From Roseococcus microcysteis (GTDB lineage: Bacteria; Pseudomonadota; Alphaproteobacteria; Acetobacterales; Acetobacteraceae), in the NCBI RefSeq assembly GCF_014764365.1, contig NZ_CP061718.1, positions 3,922,501-3,986,500 on the forward strand: a DNA stretch of 64,000 nucleotides, given 5' to 3'. Positions 51,111-63,575 of the stretch are shown here, one piece after another; position 1 is the stretch's first letter, and each line of letters starts with the position of its first letter. Position numbers and translations under genes: made by a program. The notes below the pieces were generated by a model. The model did no database searches. It worked only from the letters and a program-made list of their open reading frames with translations, and had not been told where the DNA came from.

Positions 51111-52209
51111 GGTCTCCGTTCTCGGTCGAGGACAGGCCCAGCGACAGGTCGTGCCAGGCGATGCGCGAGAGCAGGGTAAGGGCGGCGGCGTAATAGTCCG
51201 GCGCGTCCTCGACCCGCGGCATGTCCTCCGGCCGGCCATGACCACGCTGCGCCGCCTCGGCCAGCCGCGCCACCGCGCGCACGCCGCTGGGCGCGGCGAA
51301 GGGCGCCTGCAGGCCGGTCTGCAGATCCACCCAGGCCGGCATCACGCCATGGGGCTGCTCCAGCCAGAAGCGCCGCGCCGCCGCCACCGCCGCCTTCTGG
51401 TGCAGCCCGGACCAGCAGAGGTTCAGCGGGATGCGCACGGCGTCGAAGGAGAAGCGGCCGGGCCAGCCCCGCGCCGGGATTCCCTGGCCCTCGCCGCTGG
51501 CCGGCAGTTCCAGCCAGTCGGGCGGCAGCCCCCATTGGCCGAAGCGCGCCTCGCGGATGATGGGCAGGAAATCCGTCTCGACGCGCCGCCAGGCGGGGTC
51601 GGGCGCCAGGAAGGAGAGGGCCCGCAGGGCGGGCAGGGTGTAGTAGGACAGGTTCAGGACCACCCGTTGCTCGTTGCGGAACCCGTAGGCGCCGGGCAGC
51701 AGCACCGCGCGCCGGCCCACCTGCGTGACGCAGCGGCGCAGGATGTCGCGCGCCATCTGCGTGGCGCGCGCGCGGTAGCGCGGAACCCGCCACTTGTCGC
51801 CCGCGATGGCCAGTGCCCAGGCGACGAAGATGTCGCCATCGGTGGCGTTGTTCATGTCGTTCACCGGCACATCCGTGCCGGGGCGCCAGCGCCAGGCCAG
51901 CAGGCTGTCATCCGGCCGGCGCAACGCCTCGACCGTCCAGTTCAGGATCTGGTCGAAGCTGCGCTGGTCATGGGCGCGGACGGCGGCGAGCAGGGCATAG
52001 CCCTGGCCCTCGCTGTGCGAGACATGGCCGTTTCCCGTGTCGAGGATACGCCCCGAAGGATGCAGGAAGCGCCGGGCGAAGGCGAACCAATCCGCCTCCA
52101 GGTCCATCCCGCCATGCGAGGCTTGGGCGGGTGCCGCGACGGCCGCGAGCATTCCGCCGAGGGCCGCGCGGCGCGAAAACGCCTCGATGCCCGGTGCCGG
52201 TCCAGCCAT
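51091..52209 (-). CDS. glycoside hydrolase family 8 enzyme (endoglucanase/BcsZ-like)
   Basis: A 372-residue GH8 enzyme exported by a twin-arginine-like signal (FSRRAALGGMLAAVAAPAQA). Catalytic residues are present: Glu67 in HSEGQGYALLAAV (general acid) and Asp124 in NATDGDIFVAWALAIAGDKW, a full match to the family signature. Length and layout fit BcsZ-type endo-beta-1,4-glucanases, which trim cellulose or a similar beta-glucan in the periplasm. ATG 52209 was chosen over GTG 52233 since it leads directly into the signal peptide. It overlaps the convergent, catalytically degenerate paralogue by 20 bp. Confidence 0.88.
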   Translation of the reverse strand: MAGPAPGIEAFSRRAALGGMLAAVAAPAQASHGGMDLEADWFAFARRFLHPSGRILDTGNGHVSHSEGQGYALLAAVRAHDQRSFDQILNWTVEALRRPDDSLLAWRWRPGTDVPVNDMNNATDGDIFVAWALAIAGDKWRVPRYRARATQMARDILRRCVTQVGRRAVLLPGAYGFRNEQRVVLNLSYYTLPALRALSFLAPDPAWRRVETDFLPIIREARFGQWGLPPDWLELPASGEGQGIPARGWPGRFSFDAVRIPLNLCWSGLHQKAAVAAARRFWLEQPHGVMPAWVDLQTGLQAPFAAPSGVRAVARLAEAAQRGHGRPEDMPRVEDAPDYYAAALTLLSRIAWHDLSLGLSSTENGDPTRRAG

Positions 52210-52297
52210 TTTGGCATGCAGATGGACGGCCACTTTTTGTTGCTCCGCCAGAAGGTTCCCCGAGCATAATCACAACCCTTGCGGGATTCCATGGGGG

Positions 52298-52318
52298 AAA
52301 ACACGCGCTTAACGCGCG
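52298..52318 (-). terminator. weak intrinsic-terminator candidate after the aldehyde dehydrogenase gene
   Basis: Read leftward, CGCGC-GTTAA-GCGCG forms a five-pair stem, followed by TG and TTTT. It lies 14 bp beyond the aldehyde dehydrogenase stop and before the GH8 gene on the same strand. The stem is short but pure G/C. Confidence 0.35.
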
Positions 52319-52331
52319 GTGGAGAAAAAAG

Positions 52332-53659
52332 TTACTGTGGCGGAAGCCCCACGAGCCGGCGAATGAGTTTCTTGGCCAAGCCACTGTGCGGCCTGTCGAA
52401 AAGCCGGGCCAAGCTCCAGCGCCCATGCCGCACGCGCGCACGCAGGTTGGAGAATTCGCGGAAGCCCGCCTCCCCATTGCGCCGCCCAAATCCCGATTCG
52501 CCAACCCCCCGAAGGGCAGGGCCGTGATGGCCGCGTATTCCAGCGCGCGCCCCGTGACGATGGCGCCCGAGCGCGTGCCGGCGGCCACCGCATCCTCTTC
52601 CGCGCGCGTGGCGCCGAAGAGGTAGATGGCGAGGGGATGCGGCCGCGACCGCACCCAGTCCAGCGCGGCGGCGAGGTCCGGGCATTCCTCCAGCGCGAGG
52701 ACCGGCCCGAAAATCTCCTCCCGCGCCAGATCGTCCGTGGCGGGTGCGAGGCCGATCCCCTCCGGCGCCAGCCACTCGATGCCGGCCGCGCCCACGATGC
52801 GGTCCAGCCGCGCCTGTTGCGTGATGTTGATGACCCGCGTGCCCGTCGGCCCCACGCCCGCTTCCTGGGCCGCGCGGCTGAAATCCGCGGCCCTGTGGCG
52901 CACCAGCAGAACGGTGTCGGGCGCGATGCAGGTCTGGCCCGCATTCACCGCCTTGGCCACCAGGATGTCCCGCGCGGCGCGGGCGAGGTCGGCCCCCGGA
53001 AGCACCAGGGCTGGGCATTTCCCCCCCAGTTCCAGCGTCAGCGGTGTGAGGTGCTGCGCGGCGGCGGCCATGACCTTGCGGCCCGTCTCGGTGCCACCGG
53101 TGAAGACCAGGTGGTCCCAGGGGGTGGCGGCGAAGTCGCGCGCTACCTCGGGCCCGCCCTCCACCACGAGGCCCATGCGTGGGCCGAGCGCCTCGGCGAT
53201 CACTTCGGTCAGAAGCGCGGCGCAGCGCGGCGTGTGCTCGGATGGCTTCAGCACCACCCGGTTGCCGGCGGCGATGGCGTCCAGCGCCGGCAGCAAGGCC
53301 AACTGAACCGGGTAGTTCCAGGGCGACATGATGCCCACCACGCCCTTCGGCACGCATTCCGTCCAGGCGCGGGCGGGCTGGAAGGGGAAGGGTACGGGCG
53401 CGCGCGCGGGGCGCATCCAGCGGGGCAGGTTCCGGCGCAGATGCGCCGCGGCGTCGGCGATGATCTTCACATCGGCCAGCAGCGTGTCCTCGGCGCTGCG
53501 GGCGCCGAAATCCGCATGGGCGGCGTCGGCGATGGCGGCGGCGCGGGACAGGACCGCGCGGGACAGGGCATCGAGGAAGGCGCGGCGCTGGTCGAGGCCG
53601 GGCGCGCCGTCCTCGGCTTCGGCGGCGCGCAGGGCGGCGAGGGCTTGGGCGGGCGTCAT
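52332..53659 (-). pseudogene. aldehyde dehydrogenase (coniferyl-aldehyde/AldH type); frameshifted in this sequence
   Basis: A non-membrane ALDH of about 442 residues: VPKGVVGIMSPWNYPVQLALLPAL, LVFTGGTETGRKVM, LTLELGGKCPALVL (catalytic Glu), VNAGQTCIAPDTVLL (catalytic Cys), EEIFGPVLALEE. Near the C-terminus the frame breaks in the run of six G (coding strand) at 52505-52510. With one G added it reads ALPFGGVGESGFGRRNGEAGFREFSN and ends at 52332, the normal GFREFS ending. Without it, the frame runs into the antisense of the GH8 gene. Last gene of the carotenoid region; in C30 pathways an ALDH of this kind turns the 4,4'-diapo-aldehyde into the acid. Confidence 0.85.
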
Positions 53660-53722
53660 GCGCCCCGATGGGTAGGGGAGGGCGCCGGGCTTGGGAAGCC
53701 CGGCATACCCGCACGCGCAGGT

Positions 53723-53929
53723 TTACCGCGCGCCGCGCAGGGCCAGCACGCAACCACCCAGGAACACCACGCCACCCGCGATCATGTACCACATGGTCTG
53801 GTCGGTGTAGCGACCGGTGAAGGTCTCGACCACCTGCTCCATGGGGGCCTGGGTCGCGTTCAGGCCGATGATGAAGAGCACCACGCCCAGCACGGCCAGG
53901 CCCGCGCCCAGGAGGAAACTCGCTCGCAT
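53723..53929 (-). CDS. DUF3185 small membrane protein
   Basis: A 68-residue protein with two transmembrane helices (SFLLGAGLAVLGVVLFIIGLNA and MWYMIAGGVVFLGGCVLALRG) linked by a short loop that contains FTGRYTDQTMWYM, which fits DUF3185. A GGAG site precedes ATG 53929. It lies between hpnE and the aldehyde dehydrogenase gene on the same strand, 63 bp from each. Function unknown; its constant hydrophobic design suggests a membrane accessory protein. Confidence 0.85.
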   Translation of the reverse strand: MRASFLLGAGLAVLGVVLFIIGLNATQAPMEQVVETFTGRYTDQTMWYMIAGGVVFLGGCVLALRGAR

Positions 53930-53992
53930 ATGATGTCGCTCCGGTTGTTGTGCGCTCTCAACACCCGGTAGGCGCGTGGGTTGCGGTGAATG

Positions 53993-55201
53993 CTAGCCGA
54001 TGGCGCGCGCCGCCGCCCGGCCCGAACACGCCGCGGCTTCGATGGTCGCGGGCAAATGCGGCCAGGTCCAGTCGCCGGCCAGCGCCAGGTTCGTCAGATG
54101 CAGCCGCTTCGGGCGCGGGATGGCGCCGGGGCGTTGGCGGGGCGTGGCGCGGCGTTCCTTCACCACGCGGCAGGGGGGCGTCGCCATGGGCCAGTCGCCC
54201 GGCAGTCGGAACGCCATCGCCGCGCGCAGGATTTCCGTCCAGGCGCGGGCGGCGAGCGTCTCCGCCTCCTCGCCCGCCTCGGCATCGCCCGCGCTGACGG
54301 TGACGGAGACGCCTTCCGGCCGCACCAGGATCCATTGGCAGAGCGCGCCCAGCAGCCCGATGAACCGCACCGGCCCCGGCCCCGTGCGGGCGAAATGCAG
54401 GTTCACGATGGGGGCATGGGCCTGGGGCGCGTCCACATGGGTCAGCAGGCGCGTGGCCTCCCAGGGGGGCAGGGCCAGCACCACGCGGTCCTGGGCGCCG
54501 AGGGGGATGCTGTCCTCGTGGAAATGCAGCGCCGTGGCGCGGCCGCCCGACTGGTCCAGTCGGCGCAGCCGGTTGTCGGGCACATAGCGCCCTCCGGCCT
54601 TCGTGATGGCGTCCAGCGCCGGCTCCACCAGATCGGGCCCCAGCCCGCGGCGCGCCACGAACAGCCGCGTGGCGCCCGGCGCGCCCAGCCGCCGCAGCAC
54701 CTGGCCCATGCGGCGGGAGGAGGCCTCCTGCGCCGGGGTGTTGAGCGCCGCGATGGTCAGCGGGTCCACGAAGCCGCGCAGGAAATCGGGGTGCGCGGCC
54801 ATGGCCTCGCCGATGGTGCGGTCGGGCACCGGGATGGCCATCCGCATCATCGCCGCCACGGCGCCGGCCGAGACGCCCGCCGGCCGCCGGTCCGCCCGCC
54901 ACCAGCCGAGCGGCGAGAGCGCCACCAGCCGCGCGGACCCATCCGCGAGGTCCAGCACAGGCAGGCCGTCGGGTTCGGGTTCGATCCAGCCTTCGCGTGC
55001 GCCGATCTCGTCGAGGAAGCCCAGCGCCACGCGGTTCGCGCCGATCAGCGCATGGGTGCCGTTGTCGGTGCCGTCGGGCAGGGCTCGGGCGCGGCCGCCG
55101 GCGCCGGGTGTCGCTTCGTGCAGCGTGACCTCGCGCCCCGCGCGGGCCAAAGCGAGGGCCGCGACCAGCCCCGCCACACCCGCCCCCACCACATGGATCA
55201 T
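53993..55201 (-). CDS. hpnE: hydroxysqualene dehydroxylase HpnE
   Basis: A 402-residue FAD enzyme of the HpnE family, which reduces hydroxysqualene to squalene. The N-terminal dinucleotide motif VVGAGVAGLVAALALARAGREVTLHEATPGAGGRARAL is followed by DNGTHALIGAN and PLTIAALNTPAQEASSRRMGQVL, as in squalene-associated desaturase-like proteins. ATG 55201 overlaps the stop of the HpnC-HpnD gene by four bases, matching the order hpnC-hpnD-hpnE. No squalene-hopene cyclase or other hopanoid genes are in the cluster. Confidence 0.9.
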   Translation of the reverse strand: MIHVVGAGVAGLVAALALARAGREVTLHEATPGAGGRARALPDGTDNGTHALIGANRVALGFLDEIGAREGWIEPEPDGLPVLDLADGSARLVALSPLGWWRADRRPAGVSAGAVAAMMRMAIPVPDRTIGEAMAAHPDFLRGFVDPLTIAALNTPAQEASSRRMGQVLRRLGAPGATRLFVARRGLGPDLVEPALDAITKAGGRYVPDNRLRRLDQSGGRATALHFHEDSIPLGAQDRVVLALPPWEATRLLTHVDAPQAHAPIVNLHFARTGPGPVRFIGLLGALCQWILVRPEGVSVTVSAGDAEAGEEAETLAARAWTEILRAAMAFRLPGDWPMATPPCRVVKERRATPRQRPGAIPRPKRLHLTNLALAGDWTWPHLPATIEAAACSGRAAARAIG

Positions 55202-56829
55202 GCGCCGCGCAGCCCGAGCGCGAAGGCCGCCATCTCGATCTTCTCGCGGCGGGAGAGGCGCGCGCGCGGCCGTGCCCCCGCGAAGCCGCGCGCGATCATG
55301 ATGTCGAGGATGCGCCGATAGGCCATCATCATCACCCGTGCCGGGTGCAGGGCGCGGATGTCGTGGCGCGGCAGTTCCGCCTCGGCGCGGGCGAAGCCCT
55401 GGCGGGCCTGTTCGGCCAGGCGCTCGCAGATGCCGGGAAAGGCCGGGTGCGCCACGATGGACCGCGCCGGCCCTTCCGGGATGCCCGCGGCGTCGAGCAG
55501 GCTGCGGGGGATGTAGACCCGTTCGCGCGCCGCATCCTCGTCCACGTCGCGCAGGATGTTGGTCAGCTGGAAGGTGTGGCCGAGGTCGAGCCCCCATTGC
55601 TCCGCGCCCGGGTCGCCGAAGATGCGCACGCTCATCGCGCCCACGCTGCCGGCGACGCGGCGGCAATAGAGGTCGAGCGCCGCTTCGTCCGGCAGGCGCA
55701 AATGGTCCGCGGCGTCCGTCTCCATGCCCGCGATCATGGCCTCGTATTCCGCCAGCGGCACGTCGAAGCCGATGCGCGCGAGGTGCAGTTCGCGCGAGAT
55801 GACGCAATCGGGCGCCGTCAGCTTGCCGCGCCAATCGGCCAGGAAGCGGCGCTTCTCCGTCTCCGGCATGGCGCCGTCCGCGATGTCGTCCACCGCGCGG
55901 CAGAAGGCATAGACGGCCCAGAGGGCGCGCCGCCGCTCGCCCTTCAGCGTCGCCATGCCGCGCGCGAAGGAGGAACCGGCGCGCTTCACGCGGCTGGCCG
56001 TCAGGTCCGGATCATGCGGGCCGGGCAGGGGGGCGGCCAGGAGTTCGCCTGCGAAGTCGAGCTTGCCCAGCGCCACCCGCCCCAGCACCGGGTCGGCGGC
56101 GCGCAGCCTTGCCAGCAGCCGCCGCGCGAGGCCGATGGTCATGGCGGACTGGATGGCCAACCGCCGCGAGGCCACCAGGCGCGGCAGGGCCTGGGCGCGG
56201 TCGAGCTGTTCCTCCACCCGGTCCAGCATGGCGTCCAGCACCTCGCGCCGCTTCGCGTTGCCGGGGGTGAAGAAGGCCTCCTCGCCGCCCGCCAGCGCCA
56301 TCCAGCTTTGCGGCACATAGACGCGGTCGAGCTTCGCGCGGTCGGGCACCAAATCCTGGAGGTGGTTCAGGATCTGCAGCGCGGTGCAGAGGGCATCGGC
56401 GCTGGCGCGCGATTCGGGCGTGTCGCTGCCATGCAGGCGCAGCAGCATGCGGCCCACGGGGTCGGCGCTGCGGGTGCAGTAGTCCAGCAGCGCGTCCCAA
56501 TCCGCGTAGCGGGCCTGCCGGGAATCCTGGCGGAAGGCCGACAGCATGAGCCGCGCTTCCTCCACCCCCACCCCCTCCGCATGCAGCCGCGCCGCCTCGG
56601 GCAGGGGCGTCCGCGGATCGTCCAGCGCCGCCTCCATGGCGTTGAGGCGGGCGAGCTTCTCGTCCGGGGTGAGGCTTTCGCTGTCCGCGATGTCATCCGC
56701 CGTGCGGACGAAGCGGTAGAAGGCCATGACCTTCCCGCGCACCCCCTTCGCCAGGATCAGCGAGGCGGTGGGGAAGTTCTCCGTATCGTGGTCGCGGTTG
56801 GGCGCGCCCGGGGCCTTGACGTCCGTCAT
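55198..56829 (-). CDS. hpnCD: HpnC-HpnD fusion: presqualene diphosphate synthase and hydroxysqualene synthase in one frame
   Basis: A 543-residue protein with two squalene/phytoene synthase domains. Domain 1 (about 1-262) resembles HpnC: ENFPTASLILAKGVRGKVMAFYRFVRTADDIAD and HLQDLVPDRAKLDRVYVP. Domain 2 (about 275-543) resembles HpnD: SSFARGMATLKGERRRALWAVYAFCRAVDDIADG and NILRDVDEDAARERVYIP. Both have their Asp-rich motifs. They join through a short Pro linker (LLAAPLPGPHDPDL) with no start codon usable for a separate HpnD. The linker sits on a G6 run (56028-56033); given homopolymer losses elsewhere, a missing base could make an artificial fusion. Together they would turn two farnesyl diphosphates into hydroxysqualene. 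Confidence 0.85.
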   Translation of the reverse strand: MTDVKAPGAPNRDHDTENFPTASLILAKGVRGKVMAFYRFVRTADDIADSESLTPDEKLARLNAMEAALDDPRTPLPEAARLHAEGVGVEEARLMLSAFRQDSRQARYADWDALLDYCTRSADPVGRMLLRLHGSDTPESRASADALCTALQILNHLQDLVPDRAKLDRVYVPQSWMALAGGEEAFFTPGNAKRREVLDAMLDRVEEQLDRAQALPRLVASRRLAIQSAMTIGLARRLLARLRAADPVLGRVALGKLDFAGELLAAPLPGPHDPDLTASRVKRAGSSFARGMATLKGERRRALWAVYAFCRAVDDIADGAMPETEKRRFLADWRGKLTAPDCVISRELHLARIGFDVPLAEYEAMIAGMETDAADHLRLPDEAALDLYCRRVAGSVGAMSVRIFGDPGAEQWGLDLGHTFQLTNILRDVDEDAARERVYIPRSLLDAAGIPEGPARSIVAHPAFPGICERLAEQARQGFARAEAELPRHDIRALHPARVMMMAYRRILDIMIARGFAGARPRARLSRREKIEMAAFALGLRGA

Positions 56830-57923
56830 GCCCCCTTTGTGGCGGTATAGGCGCGACCTTTCCAGCCCGCCTTGAGCCCCAAAGCGGAACGCACCAGCGC
56901 CGTCCACTGGATGGCCAGCGCCACCAGCACCGTCAGCGGGTGCAGCGGCACGGTCCACCAGGGTTCACCGGTGCGCCAGGTGACGGCGGCGCGCAGCGCG
57001 AACATCAGCAGGATGGTGATGGCCGCCTCCCAGCCCGGCAGCAGCGCCCAGGGCCACAGATGGGCGCCCGCCAGCAGCACCGTCCAGACGGGCAGGCCGA
57101 TCGGGGTGGCCATGCCCTCGCGCGCGTTCTTGATGAAGCCGCCCCAGGCATGGGCGAAGCCCTCATACATGCGGCAGGTGGCGAGCGGCGCGCCGTCCAC
57201 GATCTCGGTGTCATGGCCGCGCTCGCGGAAGAGGCGGGCCAGCGCGATGGCGTCGTGCAGCACGCCCTTGATGGTGGTGTGGCCGCCCGTGCCCTCATAG
57301 GCTCGGCGCTCGACCAGGATGAGCTGCCCGCAGGCGGCGGCGAGGGAGGGCTTGCGCTGGATGGCCCGGCCGCCGAAGGGCAGATAGCAGATCAGCAGGA
57401 AGTTGATGAAGGGCACGGTCAGCCCCTCGCCGATCGTCTTCATCTCCTGCCGCGGCACGCCGCTGATGAGGGCGATGTTCTTCGCCGCGCTGTGCGCGGC
57501 CATGGCCGCCGCGGCGTGCGGGGCCAGGCGCACATCGGCGTCAATGAAGAGGAGATGCGTGCCCGTCGCGGCCTCCGCCAGCCGGGCGCAGGCATGCACC
57601 TTGCCCGTCCAGCCCGGCGGCAGGGAGGGCGCGGCCACCAGCCGCACGCGGGCGTCGCGCGCCGCATAGGCGGCCACGATCTCGGCCGTGCGGTCGGTGC
57701 TGCCATCATCCATCACCACCACCTCGACCTCGCAGCCAGTGGAGGCCAGGGCGGCGTCGAGGCAGGTGGCGATGTTGCCTTCCTCGTTGCGCGCGGGAAT
57801 GAGGATGGAGACCTTGGTGCCCGCCGGAGGTTTTCCGGAAAGGCGCGGCATCAGCCGCAGGTTGATGATGCCGAAGATGACCGGCATCAACGCCAGCGCC
57901 AGGGCGATGTGGGCGAACTCCAT
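56826..57923 (-). CDS. glycosyltransferase family 2, CrtQ/HpnB-like
   Basis: A 365-residue GT2 with an N-terminal membrane helix and three C-terminal helices. Catalytic region: KVSILIPARNEEGNIATCLDAAL, VVMDDGSTDRT, LFIDADVRL (DxD motif) and MYEGFAHAWGGFIKN, corresponding to the QxxRW-type acceptor region. The arrangement resembles glycosyltransferases of C30-carotenoid clusters (CrtQ) and HpnB. It overlaps hpnCD by four bases and follows the acyltransferase by six, so it probably glycosylates the carotenoid carboxylate. HpnB-type function in hopanoid modification is the alternative, weakened by the absence of hopanoid genes. Confidence 0.85.
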   Translation of the reverse strand: MEFAHIALALALMPVIFGIINLRLMPRLSGKPPAGTKVSILIPARNEEGNIATCLDAALASTGCEVEVVVMDDGSTDRTAEIVAAYAARDARVRLVAAPSLPPGWTGKVHACARLAEAATGTHLLFIDADVRLAPHAAAAMAAHSAAKNIALISGVPRQEMKTIGEGLTVPFINFLLICYLPFGGRAIQRKPSLAAACGQLILVERRAYEGTGGHTTIKGVLHDAIALARLFRERGHDTEIVDGAPLATCRMYEGFAHAWGGFIKNAREGMATPIGLPVWTVLLAGAHLWPWALLPGWEAAITILLMFALRAAVTWRTGEPWWTVPLHPLTVLVALAIQWTALVRSALGLKAGWKGRAYTATKGA

Positions 57924-57929
57924 GGACCT

Positions 57930-58736
57930 TCAGGCTCCCGTTTGCCCGCGTGTCTCGTGCCGCGGATCGTGGCGCTGCCCCCGCAGCAGCGCGCGCGCAT
58001 ATTGCCAAGTCCCGTAGAGGCCGCCCATGCCTTTCCGGCCTTCGACGGCGATCTCGAACCGGGAAGGGTCGCGGCTGATGGCGTCCTCGGCCAGGCGGTC
58101 CATCACGGCGGTGCAGGCGGCGCGAATGTGCTCGGTGCGGGCGTCGCGGTCCATGGCCAGCAATTCGCGCGCATCGAGCGGGGGCCCGAAGGCGATCAGC
58201 GCCTCGCCGCGCTTCTCGCTCCAGTGCAGGTATTCCATGGCCTGGGGGATGATGAGCGCATCGGGCGCGATCTCGGCCAGGCGCGTGACACCGGGCGCGA
58301 GCGGCACCGGGCGTTCGCGCACATCGGCGAAGCGGCCTGGCGCGTTCATCCAGAGCATGTGGCGGGGGTCTTCCAGCACGGTCTTCGCGGTCTGAAGGAA
58401 GCGCACCGCGCCGCGCGCCGTGCCCTGCTCGATGCCGAAGACGCCGAGGCGCTTCATGAAGCGGTACTTTTCCAGCGCCGCCGCATCAATGGGCGTGAAG
58501 CCGGGGCGTTCCAGGAAGAAGCGCCGCATCATCAGCAGGATCAGCACGCCATCCCACCAGCCGGGATGGTTCATCAGGATGATGGCGGGCCGCCCGGGCG
58601 GCACCTGGGGCAGCCCCCATTTCGCCACCCGCAGCGCGGTGAAACTGCCCTGGAAGGTGCGCGTGAAGGCCACCTGGAAGAAGGCCATCATGCGCTCGGA
58701 GCGCAGGGCGACGGGAGACACGTCTTCCGCCGCCAT
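57930..58736 (-). CDS. lysophospholipid-acyltransferase-like (PlsC family) protein, candidate carotenoid acyltransferase
   Basis: A 268-residue acyltransferase. The PlsC HxxxxD motif appears as NHPGWWDGVLILLMM, and WMNAPGRFADVRERP takes the place of the usual E-G motif (F-P-E-G-T), here changed to N-A-P-G. The change fits a specialised acceptor. Two hydrophobic segments suggest membrane association. It lies between a desaturase and the glycosyltransferase with gaps of five and six bases. In C30-carotenoid operons an acyltransferase esterifies the sugar with a fatty acid; that is the predicted role here. Confidence 0.82.
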   Translation of the reverse strand: MAAEDVSPVALRSERMMAFFQVAFTRTFQGSFTALRVAKWGLPQVPPGRPAIILMNHPGWWDGVLILLMMRRFFLERPGFTPIDAAALEKYRFMKRLGVFGIEQGTARGAVRFLQTAKTVLEDPRHMLWMNAPGRFADVRERPVPLAPGVTRLAEIAPDALIIPQAMEYLHWSEKRGEALIAFGPPLDARELLAMDRDARTEHIRAACTAVMDRLAEDAISRDPSRFEIAVEGRKGMGGLYGTWQYARALLRGQRHDPRHETRGQTGA

Positions 58737-58741
58737 GGCGG

Positions 58742-60328
58742 TCAGGCGCCCAGCAGCTCGGCCTCGCGCCGGCCCGCCAGCTCCGCCTCGGGCGACATGC
58801 CGCGGCCGCCCAGGTCGCGGTCCAGGCTGTCCGCCGCGATCCAGCCCGACATCATCACCATGGGCATGCCGGGGCCCGGATGCGCGGCACCGCCGGCGAG
58901 ATACAGGCCCTTCACCGCGCGCGAGCGGTTGCCCGGCTTGAAGGCGCCCATATAGGCCCCGTGCGAGGCCAGCCCATAGATGGCCCCGTTCAGCACGCGG
59001 TAGCGCTCATGGATGTCCACCGGCGTGAGCCGGTGCTCGACCACAATGCGCTCCTCGATGTCGGGCATCGCGGCGGTGCGCTTCAGCTTGTCCAGGATCT
59101 TCTGGCGATAGCCGGGGAAGAGCTGGTTCCAGTCATGGTGCGGCCGCATATAGGGCGTGTGCACCAGGACATAGAGCGCCTCGCCACCCTCCGGCGCGCT
59201 GCTCGGGTCGGTGGCGGAGGTCGCGGCGAGGTAGGCCGTGGGGTCCGGTGCCGGTTCGCCCTTCTTGTAGATGGCGTCGAACTCCTCCTCCGCGTCGCGC
59301 GAGAAGACGAAGCAGTGATGCGCCAGGTGGTCATAGCGCTTGTTCAGGCCGAGATAGAGCACCACGCCCGAGCAGGCCGGCTCATAGCCCTTCTTGCCGT
59401 AGCTCTCGCCCGGCGCGCCGCCCACCAGCTCCTTGTAGGTGCGGATGGCGTCCATGTTGGAGATGACGGCGTCACAGGCGATGCGCTCGCCGGAGGCGAG
59501 CTTCACGGCGACGACCTTGCCGTTCTCGATGTCGAAGCCCGTCACGTCGCTGTTGGGGCGGAGGTCCGCGCCCAGCTCGCCCGCCAGCCGCGCCAGCCCC
59601 TCGGCCACGGCGCGCGTGCCGCCCACCGGGTACCACACGCCCTCGCTCGCCTGCATGTCGCCGATGGAAGAGAGGACGGCCGGCGCCAGATAGGGGTTGG
59701 AGCCGACATACTGGCAGAAATGGTCCAGCATCTGCGCCAGGCGTTCATCCGGCACATGGCCGCGGATGACCTTGGCCACCGTCTGGCCCATGCGCAGCGA
59801 GAGCACGTCGCGCAGGGTGGAGGGGCTGAAATTGGCCTTGAGGTCCAGCGTGTCGCCAATGCCCTCGACGGATTTCCAGAAGAAGAATTTTTCGGAGACG
59901 CCATGGAGGTGCTTGGCCACGTCCTGGAACTTCCGGTAGCCCTCCCCCAGCCCCTTGCCGGGGGCGAAGCGGTCCATGGCCTGGGCCATGGCGTCCACAT
60001 TCTCCATCAGGTCGATGCGGGTGCCGTCCTCGAAGAAGCAGCGCCATTGCGGGTCGAGGCGGATCAGCGGGATTTCCGTGTTCGGGTCGCGCCCCGCCTC
60101 CGCGATGACCCGGCGCAGCACGCGCGGCACGGTCAGGATGGTCGGGCCCATGTCGAAGCGGAAGGACCCGCTGCCATCGGGCGCGTCCAGGAAAAGCTGC
60201 GCCGCCTTGCCGCCGAGCCAGGGGTTCTTGTCCAGCAGCGTCACGCGGTGGCCGCGCGCGGCCGCGGTGACGGCGGCGGCGAGGCCGCCCAGCCCCGCCC
60301 CCACCACGACGACATGGGAGGTGGTCAT
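58742..60328 (-). CDS. CrtI/CrtN/CrtP-family carotenoid desaturase/oxidase
   Basis: A 528-residue FAD protein of the phytoene-desaturase family. It has VVVVGAGLGGLAAAVTAAARGHRVTLLDKNPWLGGKAAQL at the N-terminus, FRFDMGPTILTVPRVL, GVWYPVGGTRAVAEGLARLA, and GLYLAGGAAHPGPGMPMVMMSGWIAADSL, the family C-terminal signature. It overlaps the upstream paralogue (60325-61896) by four bases. Two non-identical desaturase-like proteins in one operon match a CrtN (desaturation) plus CrtP (terminal methyl oxidation) division of labour; which is which cannot be settled by inspection. Confidence 0.88.
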   Translation of the reverse strand: MTTSHVVVVGAGLGGLAAAVTAAARGHRVTLLDKNPWLGGKAAQLFLDAPDGSGSFRFDMGPTILTVPRVLRRVIAEAGRDPNTEIPLIRLDPQWRCFFEDGTRIDLMENVDAMAQAMDRFAPGKGLGEGYRKFQDVAKHLHGVSEKFFFWKSVEGIGDTLDLKANFSPSTLRDVLSLRMGQTVAKVIRGHVPDERLAQMLDHFCQYVGSNPYLAPAVLSSIGDMQASEGVWYPVGGTRAVAEGLARLAGELGADLRPNSDVTGFDIENGKVVAVKLASGERIACDAVISNMDAIRTYKELVGGAPGESYGKKGYEPACSGVVLYLGLNKRYDHLAHHCFVFSRDAEEEFDAIYKKGEPAPDPTAYLAATSATDPSSAPEGGEALYVLVHTPYMRPHHDWNQLFPGYRQKILDKLKRTAAMPDIEERIVVEHRLTPVDIHERYRVLNGAIYGLASHGAYMGAFKPGNRSRAVKGLYLAGGAAHPGPGMPMVMMSGWIAADSLDRDLGGRGMSPEAELAGRREAELLGA

Positions 60329-61896
60329 GTGTTCGCTCCTTGCGGCGCCAGGGCGGCGGGCCGTTTGCCGGCCGCCAGCGCCAAATCTTCCTGGATGAGG
60401 CGCGTGGTGATGCGCGCCCCCTCATAGATCACGGGCAGGCCCGAGCCCGGATGCGTGCCGCCGCCCACGAGGTAGAGGCCCTCGGTGTCGTTGAAGCGGT
60501 TGCGTGGCCGGAAGCTCAGCATCTGCATCAGGTCGTGGCTGAGGTTGAAGGTGGCGCCATAGCCCACCGAGAAATCATCCTGCCAGCCCTGGGGCGAGAC
60601 CACCCGCTCATACCGGATGCGGGATTCGAGGTCATGGATGCCCAGCGTCTCCAGCCGCTTGATGGCCAGGTCGCGGAAGGGCTTGGCCTCCTTCTGCCAA
60701 TCCGCGCCGAAGCGCAGGTTGGGCACGGGCACCAGCATGTAGAGGGCCGAATGGCCGGGGGGTGCCAGCGAGGGGTCCGTCACCGTCGGGTTCTGGACAT
60801 AGAGGCTCGGCACCGCCGGGATCACGCCGCTTTCGATCTGGCGGATGTTCTCCTGATAGGTCTCGGCCAGCAGGACGTTGTGGTGCGAGAGCTGCGGCAG
60901 CTCACCCTCGATGCCGAGGTAAAGCATGAAGGTGGAGCAGGAATAGCGCGCGCGCTCGATCTTGCGGTCGGACCAGGCCTTGCGGATGCGGTCGGGCACC
61001 AAGCGCGGCACCGCATGGGCGAAATCGCCATTGATGACGACGGCATCGGCCGGGATGTGCTGCCCGCCCACATCCACGCCCGTGGCGCGCCGGCCCTGGA
61101 AGGTGACCCGGTCCACGGGCGTGTTGAGCTTGATCTCGACGCCCAGCCGCTCCGCCACGCGGGCCATGGCGTCACTGACCGCGCCGCAGCCGCCACGCGG
61201 GTGATAGACGCCGTATTCGTACTCCAGGAAGCTCAGGATGGTGAACATCGAGGGGCATTTGAACGGCGACATGCCCAGATACTTGGTCTGGAAGCTGAAG
61301 GCGAGGCGGATGCGCGGGTCGCTGAAGTAACGCTTCAGGTCGTCATCCACCTGCAGATGCGGGCGCAGCTGCGGCAGGCTGCCCAGCACGTCGCGGCCCA
61401 GCATGCGCGCGGCGGTGCTGAAGGGCTGCTCCAGCACCGGCTTGAAGGCATCGAGCTTCCAGCGATTGTCCGCCATGAAGCGCCGCACGCCCTGCGCGTC
61501 CTGGGGCGCGATGGCGGCGATGGCGGCCTCCATCCGGTCCAGGTCGCCGGTCGCGTCCAGGACGGTGTTGGGCTTGCCCTCGAAGATCAGCCGGTATTGC
61601 GGGTCGAGCTGGATGAGTTCGATCTCGTCATCCAAGTCCGCGCCGCAGGCGGTGAAGATTTCGCGCAGGATTCGCGGGTAAAGAAAGAAGGTCGGCCCCA
61701 GGTCGAACTTGTAACCTTCCGGCGAGGTCAAGGTACGGGTGCGCCCGCCCACCACCTCATCCTTTTCGTACAGGGTCACGCGGGCGCCGGTGGCGGCCAA
61801 TTGCATTGCCGCCGCGAGACCCCCGGGCCCCGCGCCAATGATGGCGATGCTGGGACGGGGGCGCCGCAGGGCGGGAGCGGGAAGTGATGCGTTCAT
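60325..61896 (-). CDS. CrtI/CrtN-family carotenoid desaturase (first gene of the pigment operon)
   Basis: A 523-residue desaturase. SIAIIGAGPGGLAAAMQLAATGARVTLYEKDEVVGGRTRTL is the FAD start, then KFDLGPTFFLYP, YEYGVYHPRGGCGAVSDAMARVAERLGVEI and GLYLVGGGTHPGSGLPVIYEGARITTRL. It is only distantly like its neighbour at 58742. ATG 61896 starts a short polar leader before the FAD motif. The 86-bp spacer to the upstream acyl-CoA dehydrogenase must hold the promoter of the operon, which runs at least to hpnE. Predicted to desaturate squalene-derived C30 chains; an oxidase (CrtP) role is the alternative. Confidence 0.88.
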   Translation of the reverse strand: MNASLPAPALRRPRPSIAIIGAGPGGLAAAMQLAATGARVTLYEKDEVVGGRTRTLTSPEGYKFDLGPTFFLYPRILREIFTACGADLDDEIELIQLDPQYRLIFEGKPNTVLDATGDLDRMEAAIAAIAPQDAQGVRRFMADNRWKLDAFKPVLEQPFSTAARMLGRDVLGSLPQLRPHLQVDDDLKRYFSDPRIRLAFSFQTKYLGMSPFKCPSMFTILSFLEYEYGVYHPRGGCGAVSDAMARVAERLGVEIKLNTPVDRVTFQGRRATGVDVGGQHIPADAVVINGDFAHAVPRLVPDRIRKAWSDRKIERARYSCSTFMLYLGIEGELPQLSHHNVLLAETYQENIRQIESGVIPAVPSLYVQNPTVTDPSLAPPGHSALYMLVPVPNLRFGADWQKEAKPFRDLAIKRLETLGIHDLESRIRYERVVSPQGWQDDFSVGYGATFNLSHDLMQMLSFRPRNRFNDTEGLYLVGGGTHPGSGLPVIYEGARITTRLIQEDLALAAGKRPAALAPQGANT

Positions 61897-61982
61897 GCCT
61901 GGGCTGTTCTTGTGCTGCGCATCAACATGCTGTGTTGGCGCGAGGGCGCAAGCCCCCGATTGTTCACAACCACTTCTTTCCC

Positions 61983-63575
61983 CTAAGCGATCAGCGCCAG
62001 GACTTCGTCGGCCCCGGCGATTTCCTGGCAATGCGCCACGGCGCGGGGCAGCAGCCGCGCCATGTAGAAGCCCGCGATGGGGCCATAGGCGGGGTCCAGC
62101 CGGGCGGCGCGGGCGAGCTGTGCCGCGCCCAGGAACCAACCACAGGCTTCAAGATAGGCGGTGGCGGTCGCCGCCACCTCGGCCGGGCCGGCGCTCAGGA
62201 TGCGGCGGGTGGCCCCCTCCAGCGCCTCGGCGGCGGGGGCGAGGCGCGCATCCTCCGCCACGGCGGCGGCCAGCATGGCGCGCAGCGTGGCCCCCTGGTC
62301 GCGCGGCAGCTTGCGGGTGACGAGGTCCAGCGCCTGGATGCCGTTCGTGCCCTCATAGATGGGGCAGATGCGCGAATCGCGCAGCACCTGGGCGGCGCCC
62401 GTATCCTCCACGAAGCCCATGCCCCCATGCACCTGCACGCCGAGCGAGGCCGCGGCCACGCCCCGGTCCGTGCACCAGGACTTCACGATGGGCGTCAGCA
62501 GGGCGAGCTTTTCCTCCGCCCCCGCCACGCCGGCCCGCGCCGCATCGGCCGCGACGCAGGCTTCCAGGGCCAGGAACCGCCCGGCCAGGGTGGTGGCCCG
62601 CATCTCGGCCAGCATCCGCGCCACATCGGGGTGGCGGGCGATAGGCTTGCCGCCCTGCTCGCGCCCCTCGGCATAGGCGGTGGCCAGGTGCAGCGCCCGC
62701 GCCCCGGCCGCCACCCCCTCGATGCCGACCTGGAGGCGGGCATTGTTCATCATGGCGAACATGGCGGGCAGGCCGCGATGGGGCTCGCCGATGAGTTCCG
62801 CCTCCGCCCCCTCGAACAGCATGATGCAGGTGGGCGAGGCATGGATGCCGAGCTTGCGCTCGATCCCCCCGCAGCGCACCGCGTTGCGGCTGCCATCCGC
62901 CTTCAGCTTCGGGCAGGCGAAGAGCGAAATCCCGCGCGACCCCGCCGGCGCCTCCGGCAACCGGGCCAGCACCAGGTGCAGGGTGTTCGCGGCGAGGTCG
63001 TTCTCGCCATAGGTGATGTAGATCTTCTGGCCGTGCAGGGCGTAGCGGCCATCGCCCAGCGGCTCCGCCCGGGTGCGGACGGTGGAGAGGTCACTGCCCG
63101 CCTGGGGCTCGGTCAGGCACATGGTGCCATTCCATTCGCCCGAGACCAGCGGCGGCAGCAGGCGCCCGGCCTGGTCCTCCGTGGCGTGGCGTTCCAGCAG
63201 CTCGATGGCGCCCCAGGTCAGGGTGGGGCAGAGGCTGAAGGCGTGGTCGGCCGTGGTCAGCAGCTCCTTCATGGCGGCCGCCAGCGCGAAGGGCAGGCCC
63301 TGGCCGCCATGGGCCTCGCCCGCCGGCAGCCCCTGCCAGCCGGCCTCGATCCACTTGGCGTAGATGTCGCGGTAGGCGGGAGGGCAGCGCACCTCGCCGC
63401 CTTCGAAGCGGGCGCCCTGGCGGTCCGCCTCCAGCCGGTGCGGCTCGACCACGCCCTCGGTGAATTTCCGCATCTCCTCCAGCAGGGCGGCCACGTCGTC
63501 GGCGCCCAGCACCTCCTCGGGGATGGGGTGCAGCCGGGTGAGGGCGAAGCGGATGTCGTCGAGCTGGCTGGTCAT
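61983..63575 (-). CDS. acyl-CoA dehydrogenase
   Basis: A 530-residue acyl-CoA dehydrogenase of the long, DmdC/FadE-like type. CLTEPQAGSDLSTVRTRA, IYITYGENDLAANTLHLVLAR, and a catalytic-Glu segment SRICPIYEGTNGIQALDLVTRKL are clear, as is VHGGMGFVEDTGAAQVLRD. It has the extra C-terminal domain of about 120 residues found in this group, but is somewhat shorter than the usual 590 or so residues. Its start overlaps the stop of an upstream FAD oxidase by four bases. The substrate is unknown. Confidence 0.9.
   Translation of the reverse strand: MTSQLDDIRFALTRLHPIPEEVLGADDVAALLEEMRKFTEGVVEPHRLEADRQGARFEGGEVRCPPAYRDIYAKWIEAGWQGLPAGEAHGGQGLPFALAAAMKELLTTADHAFSLCPTLTWGAIELLERHATEDQAGRLLPPLVSGEWNGTMCLTEPQAGSDLSTVRTRAEPLGDGRYALHGQKIYITYGENDLAANTLHLVLARLPEAPAGSRGISLFACPKLKADGSRNAVRCGGIERKLGIHASPTCIMLFEGAEAELIGEPHRGLPAMFAMMNNARLQVGIEGVAAGARALHLATAYAEGREQGGKPIARHPDVARMLAEMRATTLAGRFLALEACVAADAARAGVAGAEEKLALLTPIVKSWCTDRGVAAASLGVQVHGGMGFVEDTGAAQVLRDSRICPIYEGTNGIQALDLVTRKLPRDQGATLRAMLAAAVAEDARLAPAAEALEGATRRILSAGPAEVAATATAYLEACGWFLGAAQLARAARLDPAYGPIAGFYMARLLPRAVAHCQEIAGADEVLALIA

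Follow-up and report, generated by a model that had tools for sequence, protein, structure and literature searches.

A 64,000-nucleotide stretch of the Roseococcus microcysteis genome (bases 3,922,501–3,986,500 in a 4.2 Mb assembly made up of one contig; hereafter the window) contains on its minus strand a group of genes which very probably (roughly 87%) represents a squalene-route C30 carotenoid operon making a glycosylated pigment. Reading leftward from position 61896, these genes encode two CrtI-family proteins of the CrtN and CrtP types, a PlsC-type acyltransferase, a family 2 glycosyltransferase (GT2), a fused HpnC-HpnD protein (HpnCD), HpnE, a small DUF3185 protein and an aldehyde dehydrogenase (ALDH), with families assigned by NCBIfam and Pfam models (Table 1). 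The C30 and glycosylation assignments are supported by a phylogenetic tree, by gene order, by knockouts in orthologous loci and by the chemistry reported for the nearest named relative. The kind of system is already known; the present one is well conserved and has a fused squalene synthase built in. A first-pass annotation, made from the sequence alone, had proposed such a squalene-route C30 pathway with glycosylation, which is borne out by the same lines of evidence. The gene set and the tight packing from 61896 to 53993 described there are also real, with all families recognised and the first six genes separated by −4, +5, +6, −4 and −7 bp, the last distance being −4 bp if HpnE begins at the ATG at 55201. 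The hpnE–DUF3185 and DUF3185–ALDH gaps are 63 bp each.

In the predicted order of reactions, the fused HpnCD would convert two farnesyl diphosphates through presqualene diphosphate to hydroxysqualene, which HpnE would reduce to squalene. CrtN would then desaturate squalene, CrtP would convert the end methyl groups to aldehydes and ALDH would turn these into 4,4'-diapocarotene-4,4'-dioic acid. GT2 would attach glucose at the acid ends, and the sugar would probably be acylated with a fatty acid by the PlsC-like enzyme. Part of the squalene would probably go to a squalene-hopene cyclase encoded elsewhere. These genes are offered as those behind a C30 pigment described from Roseococcus in the 1990s, which is said to join in light harvesting, an assignment that can be tested by knockout.

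The CrtN- and CrtP-type proteins and the C40 genes of the host

A maximum-likelihood tree was constructed from 60 CrtI-family proteins, of which five came from the window and the rest of its genome, 49 from the 51 CrtI-family matches in 16 further genomes and six from four named plasmids, two CrtD-like matches (G056, G536) being left out. This tree contained clades of C40 CrtI (11 rows including Pantoea and Thermus, support 100/100), CrtD (10 rows, 100/100), CrtN (19 rows, 100/100) and CrtP (20 rows, 100/99). It placed the first protein of the operon within the CrtN clade and the second within the CrtP clade, each nearest to Roseococcus thiosulfatophilus and separate from the C40 CrtI and CrtD of the same genome. 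Both clades also hold proteins of Methylorubrum and Azospirillum; as staphylococcal (S. aureus) and planctomycete sequences stood outside the tree, the CrtN and CrtP designations are based on these Methylorubrum and Azospirillum counterparts and on synteny. A warning that long branches meet between groups affects the joining of the groups and not the placement of the window proteins, and none of the rows flagged for long end branches (four) or odd composition (five) is a window protein of the operon. The search with model TIGR02734 recognised both as CrtI-family proteins, as the first-pass annotation had, the phylogeny agrees with its C30 reading, and a C40 identity of the two proteins was rejected.

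It is extremely improbable that the desaturases are C40 enzymes and that the operon makes C40 pigments. The genome does carry crtB and crtI together with crtD-like genes, and its gene content marks it as that of a phototroph, but the window proteins are separated from C40 CrtI and CrtD with full tree support, and seven of the 16 further genomes (G183, G533, G534, G535, G537, G539 and G540) have crtN and crtP matches only, with no C40 CrtI at E ≤ 1e-40. The locus in this respect differs from a C40 spirilloxanthin cluster, its desaturases lying outside the CrtI and CrtD clades and the C40 genes lying elsewhere in the genome. The latter are found near 0.30–0.31 Mb, where pufM, pufC, crtI, a CrtD gene (307.5 kb; 631 bits against a cutoff of 580) and another, CrtD-like one occur, and near 0.91 Mb, where a bchE-crtB-bchO-bchD-bchI cluster is accompanied by a 5-aminolevulinate synthase gene and encodes a CrtB of 395 bits, below the cutoff of 500. 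The second CrtD-like protein (approximately 301.6–303.3 kb; L047:3569-5272) scored 516 bits, below the cutoff of 580, in an open reading frame (ORF) open over 567 amino acids; it has a close counterpart in R. thiosulfatophilus, and in-frame TGAs were counted in the matched stretches (2 and 1).

The occurrence of C40 genes in the same genome weighs against the proposed C30 operon, as does a 2023 phylogenomic study which credits R. microcysteis with CrtBDEFI and whose text mentions neither C30 nor squalene nor crtN (PMC10715153). The C40 set elsewhere that the first-pass annotation had named as grounds for refutation is largely present (crtB, crtI and two crtD-like genes, crtE not having been searched for); it does not explain the window desaturases. 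Since C40 and photosynthesis genes share the genome and the former could add C40 pigment, the pink colour attributed to the cluster need not be due to C30 pigment alone.

Conservation and relation to characterised loci

Conservation was followed in named loci, taken as the best 80 of 525 from a crtP profile, with genes counted from matches of more than 100 bits on the same strand. Fifty-five of these loci (L096–L150), all retrieved by crtP, belong mostly to Roseomonas-clade Acetobacteraceae together with some loosely labelled metagenome-assembled genomes (MAGs), several of their contigs ending within the cluster; a further 25 (L151–L175) come from Methylobacterium, Methylorubrum, Microvirga and kin. 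In the first group crtN was found in 54, PlsC in 54, GT2 in 54, HpnCD in 44, HpnE in 40 and ALDH in 37, and the corresponding numbers in the second were 22 for crtN, 24 for PlsC, 24 for GT2, eight for HpnCD and none for ALDH. Where at least 7.5 kb was available downstream in the first group (n = 44), 33 loci had both HpnCD and ALDH, four ALDH only, four HpnCD only and three neither. HpnCD was a single open piece in 42 of 44 loci in L096–L150 (two partial) and in all eight of L151–L175. This recurrence among the L096–L150 loci shows that the gene arrangement is beyond chance.

The order crtN-crtP-PlsC-GT2 is kept in the Roseomonas clade, Methylorubrum, Methylobacterium, Microvirga (where crtN lies 1.5–5 kb away from crtP), Azospirillum and a Gluconobacter plasmid. 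The HpnCD fusion occurs within the cassette in the Roseomonas clade, in Microvirga (seven loci) and in one Salinarimonadaceae MAG, and the Methylorubrum and Methylobacterium loci have the core without it. Among the best 80 of 525, the closest named CrtP record is that of R. thiosulfatophilus RB-3 (L096; 98%), whose operon has an identical gene order. A class-wide CrtP search at E ≤ 1e-100 returned eight of 385 genomes, the window's own included.

Experimental evidence is available from two orthologous loci. For Azospirillum brasilense Sp7, mutants lacking either hpnCDE or crtNPOQ are reported to form no carotenoids, those without crtNPOQ accumulating squalene (PMC13274349). The Sp7 locus (L215) encodes proteins with 57% (CrtN), 66% (CrtP), 43% (PlsC) and 50% (GT2) identity to those of the window and shares the order crtN-crtP-acyltransferase-glycosyltransferase, squalene being the precursor demonstrated there. 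It differs in that its hpnCDE lie at a separate locus and that its adjacent ALDH is divergent, 32% identical and of another clade. In Methylobacterium extorquens AM1, the roles of META1p3663 (glycosyltransferase) and META1p3664 (acyltransferase) were shown by deletion and complementation, the product being 4-[2-O-11Z-octadecenoyl-glucopyranosyl]-4,4'-diapolycopenedioic acid, and crtB is said to be without influence on the pigment (PMC10448405). The primers of that study for the four ends of META1p3663/3664 match locus L161, with at most one mismatch each, around the GT2 and PlsC homologues; allowing up to two mismatches over the 25 loci, four further loci match one primer and 20 match none. 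The glycosyltransferase, acyltransferase, CrtP and CrtN of AM1 (META1p3663–3665 and 3670) are given the same roles as those proposed for the window, with squalene likewise from HpnCDE; unlike in the window, the AM1 hpnCDE are separate genes beside shc, crtN is some genes off by locus numbers, and no ALDH is known for the step (PMC10448405).

The staphyloxanthin pathway comprises crtMNPQO and aldH. The window shares with it the logic of CrtN, CrtP, ALDH and glycosyl- and acyltransferase steps, the difference being that CrtM and dehydrosqualene are used there and HpnCDE and squalene would be used here. No CrtM was seen among the PF00494 matches of the genome as assigned, no CrtM-specific model having been run. 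The acyltransferase family also differs from that of staphyloxanthin, in line with the report that no CrtO homologue was found in AM1 (PMC10448405).

Whether the predicted acyl step takes place has a bearing on the end product. A review ascribes a part in light transfer to the C30 carotenedioate of R. thiosulfatophilus and to the diglucosyl ester of this compound (PMC12654162). The passage concerned names the diacid and the diglucosyl ester and no acyl form, so this relative gives acylation no chemical support, which counts against that part of the proposal. The same pathway could stop at a mono- or diglucosyl ester of the C30 diacid that bears no acyl group, with the PlsC-like protein acting on another lipid or only sometimes, and in agreement with this PlsC shows the lowest conservation among the four core proteins (37–47% outside the Roseomonas clade). 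Such an outcome is considered rather unlikely, as PlsC sits between crtP and GT2 and is missing from only one locus in each of the two groups, some contigs ending there, its AM1 counterpart acylates the glucoside (PMC10448405), and saponification in the old pigment work could have masked acyl esters. The HX4D motif of the window protein occurs as HPGWWD at residue 57. Of the glycosyl-acyl product named in the first-pass annotation, the glycosylation is therefore supported and the acylation is a predicted step.

A probable sharing of the squalene supply with hopanoid synthesis

Within the fused protein, the best stretch for TIGR03464 (HpnC) covers residues 13–266 and that for TIGR03465 (HpnD) residues 281–534, with DDIAD in each half. 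The whole-protein HpnC score of 321 bits is the sum of two stretches, and the HpnD whole-protein score is likewise summed. Taken by itself, the HpnC half reaches 234 bits, short of its NCBIfam cutoff (250), and HpnE scores 239.5 bits to TIGR03467, its best model, against a cutoff of 283; both values weigh against the assignment. Single-domain HpnC scores across the family genomes are 205–234, also under 250. On the best models, squalene production by HpnC, HpnD and HpnE is predicted, activities which the window would have in common with the hopanoid operon hpnABCDEF.

No second HpnCDE set was found in the genome, and no HpnC or HpnD was recognised there beside the fusion, which is thus the single recognised squalene source. 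The PF00494 matches in the genome are the two domains of the fusion, crtB in the bch cluster and one squalene/phytoene-synthase-family gene at 96.7 kb (G000:C1:96713-97399; L004, L006), with 108 bits to PF00494 and no NCBIfam match at E ≤ 1e-30. A second squalene source in this gene is unlikely but conceivable and would tell against the shared supply of squalene, not against the rest of the proposal.

Unlike in a hopanoid operon, no squalene-hopene cyclase match was found within the window; the only one in the genome is at 1,192,266 (755 bits, cutoff 431), surrounded by hpnA, hpnB, hpnI and hpnJ, with no hpnC, hpnD or hpnE among the ten ORFs scanned at this 1.19 Mb locus. The argument of the first-pass annotation that absence of a cyclase speaks against a hopanoid role consequently fails, and a reading without hopanoids was rejected. 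With the fusion as the one recognised HpnC and HpnD, the cyclase encoded elsewhere probably receives some of the squalene.

In a 150-genome family sample, 146 genomes match the 543-amino-acid HpnCD query somewhere. Of the 29 HpnCD loci returned from other genomes, 28 were examined (the remaining contig was very short): 20 have crtN and crtP adjoining, two are cut by the contig end on that side, four have HpnCD and HpnE only among the genes searched, and two are hopanoid operons with cyclase and distant fusions (37–44% identity). There are 27 family genomes with the fused protein, the window's own included, and in 26 of them a single HpnC match was found (E ≤ 1e-50), lying within a long open reading frame of the fused locus. 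A squalene-hopene cyclase is present in 21 of the 27, no match being found in G104, G095, G028, G087 (84% complete), G115 (whose HpnCD ends at a contig edge) and G005. The single fused HpnC in 26 of 27 together with the cyclase in 21 of 27 makes it likely that in most of these lineages a single fused protein supplies the squalene for both hopanoids and pigment. In G104, G095 and G028 the crt cassette and fused HpnCD occur with no cyclase match and squalene would serve the pigment alone; G005 likewise has fused HpnCD with no cyclase match.

It is very improbable that HpnCDE serve mainly for hopanoids, with their location in a pigment operon being incidental. The 1.19 Mb locus without hpnCDE and the four of 28 family loci where HpnCD-HpnE occur without crt genes would fit such a role, but HpnCD and HpnE also lie inside crt cassettes in Microvirga and the Salinarimonadaceae MAG, and three genomes have the cassette with no cyclase match. 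For the C30 operon proposed here, it is moderately probable that the hopanoid pathway in this lineage lost its own hpnCDE and relies on the fused synthase of the pigment operon, one transcript setting the squalene for both hopanoids and the C30 pigment, be it light-harvesting or protective, and that the operon underlies the unusual C30 carotenedioate to which a transfer of light energy onto bacteriochlorophyll is ascribed in Roseococcus, in a genome which also keeps C40 genes.

The aldehyde dehydrogenase and neighbouring features

The ALDH gene starts at 53659 and changes frame near 52,510, its last approximately 57 residues being read in the frame that ends at 52332. The ORF 52332–53792 was rejected as the ALDH, as it lies in another frame for most of its length. 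The frameshift in the present assembly, with no second ALDH ortholog in the genome at E ≤ 1e-30, is a further point against a complete pathway. The gene is 90% identical to the sister copy over 1,471 bases and is open over 441 residues in both sister genomes (G044 and G124). The shift coincides with a homopolymer run, the assembly being a single contig, and the flanks remain sister-like on both sides. This points to a read error or to a change of very recent date; a read error appears at least as likely as a true loss. The catalytic-type motifs NAGQTC and LELGGK occur in the protein. The earlier statement that the cluster covers every step from farnesyl diphosphate to the product accordingly holds for the lineage and, the ALDH being present but out of frame, not for the sequence as assembled.

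Should the ALDH truly be lost in this strain, the chain would end in aldehydes or another dehydrogenase would act. Besides the frameshift and the single ortholog, this would accord with the four of 44 Roseomonas-group loci having HpnCD without ALDH (one of which, L114, has a 66% ortholog on another contig of the same genome) and with the dehydrogenase of AM1, for which no gene is known (PMC10448405). Given the homopolymer run, the sister-like flanks and the motifs, true loss is judged unlikely.

By sequence, the nearest solved structures are steroid aldehyde dehydrogenase 9nxl, benzaldehyde dehydrogenase 5ucd and class 3 aldehyde dehydrogenases. The ALDHs beside other cassettes (Azospirillum, the Gluconobacter plasmid, L089, L090 and L092) form a distinct tree group, the Roseomonas-type and Azospirillum-type groups having support of 100/100 each and identities between them of 29–36% over more than 250 residues (up to 44% over shorter alignments). 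These may be two recruitments, the unrooted tree being also compatible with sister groups. In the two Methylorubrum genomes searched, the best ALDH matches reached 35% identity across roughly 200 residues in G531 and 43% across roughly 180 in G532, with no clear ortholog, which agrees with the oxidation step still missing there. The ALDH within the cassette is a candidate type for the step missing in Methylobacterium.

Table 1. Features of the probable C30 carotenoid locus and its surroundings in the window
Feature	Coordinates	Strand	Basis
CrtN-type desaturase (4,4'-diapophytoene/squalene desaturase clade)	60325..61896	-	TIGR02734 516 bits, cutoff 238; CrtN clade 100/100
CrtP-type terminal oxidase, CrtI superfamily	58742..60328	-	TIGR02734 388 bits, cutoff 238; CrtP clade 100/99
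PlsC-like acyltransferase (place of META1p3664 / crtO)	57930..58736	-	PF01553 27.9 bits, cutoff 23; synteny
GT2 glycosyltransferase (place of META1p3663 / crtQ)	56826..57923	-	PF00535 77.8 bits; synteny
HpnC-HpnD fusion, 543 amino acids	55198..56829	-	TIGR03464 and TIGR03465; two SQS_PSY domains, one ORF
HpnE hydroxysqualene dehydroxylase	53993..55201	-	TIGR03467 best model; ATG 55201 overlaps HpnCD stop
DUF3185 small protein	53723..53929	-	PF11381 67.6 bits
ALDH, one-base frameshift near 52,510	52332..53659	-	PF00171 192.9 bits
Terminator-like stem-loop directly 3' of ALDH, possible operon end	52304..52318	-	Stem-loop scan
Acyl-CoA dehydrogenase family protein adjoining operon	61983..63575	-	Pfam ACAD domains

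A DUF3185 match was found in only one of the 80 named loci, that of the sister species (E ≤ 0.01); the protein was therefore placed outside the conserved set and dropped as a pathway part. Terminator-like sites were no commoner in the scan than in shuffles, yet the identical sequence occurs 3' of the sister's ALDH. A scan of 52100–62100 for sigma-70-like promoters gave no sites against 0.6 expected. No paper on the cluster was seen among the titles and abstract openings listed in literature searches; novelty is not claimed for the cluster or the fusion, and a 2022 PNAS paper on the squalene route may cover these genomes.

Thirty-six of the 55 L096–L150 loci, and none of the 25 L151–L175 loci, have an acyl-CoA dehydrogenase family gene upstream of crtN in the same orientation, at a distance of 81–229 bp (once 583); directly before this gene there are 24 matches to the window's DAO-type gene. 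The dehydrogenase may be an overlooked pathway partner or a mere conserved neighbour. In L092 (G163) and L095 (G295), HpnE, fused HpnCD, a diverged CrtP-like protein (44–48%) and an ALDH on the opposite strand occur with no crtN match found on searching, and G163 has a complete crtNPOQ cassette elsewhere (L091). In L066 (G088), the matches to crtN, to crtP, to hpnE and to the acyl-CoA dehydrogenase gene are each spread over at least two frames, a picture that resembles an error-prone assembly. The Gluconobacter thailandicus plasmid NZ_CP043044.1 (L216), of conjugative type, carries crtN-crtP-acyltransferase-glycosyltransferase-DUF2141-ALDH, so the cassette may be mobile, and a DUF2141 gene directly follows the glycosyltransferase gene both there and in Azospirillum (L215).

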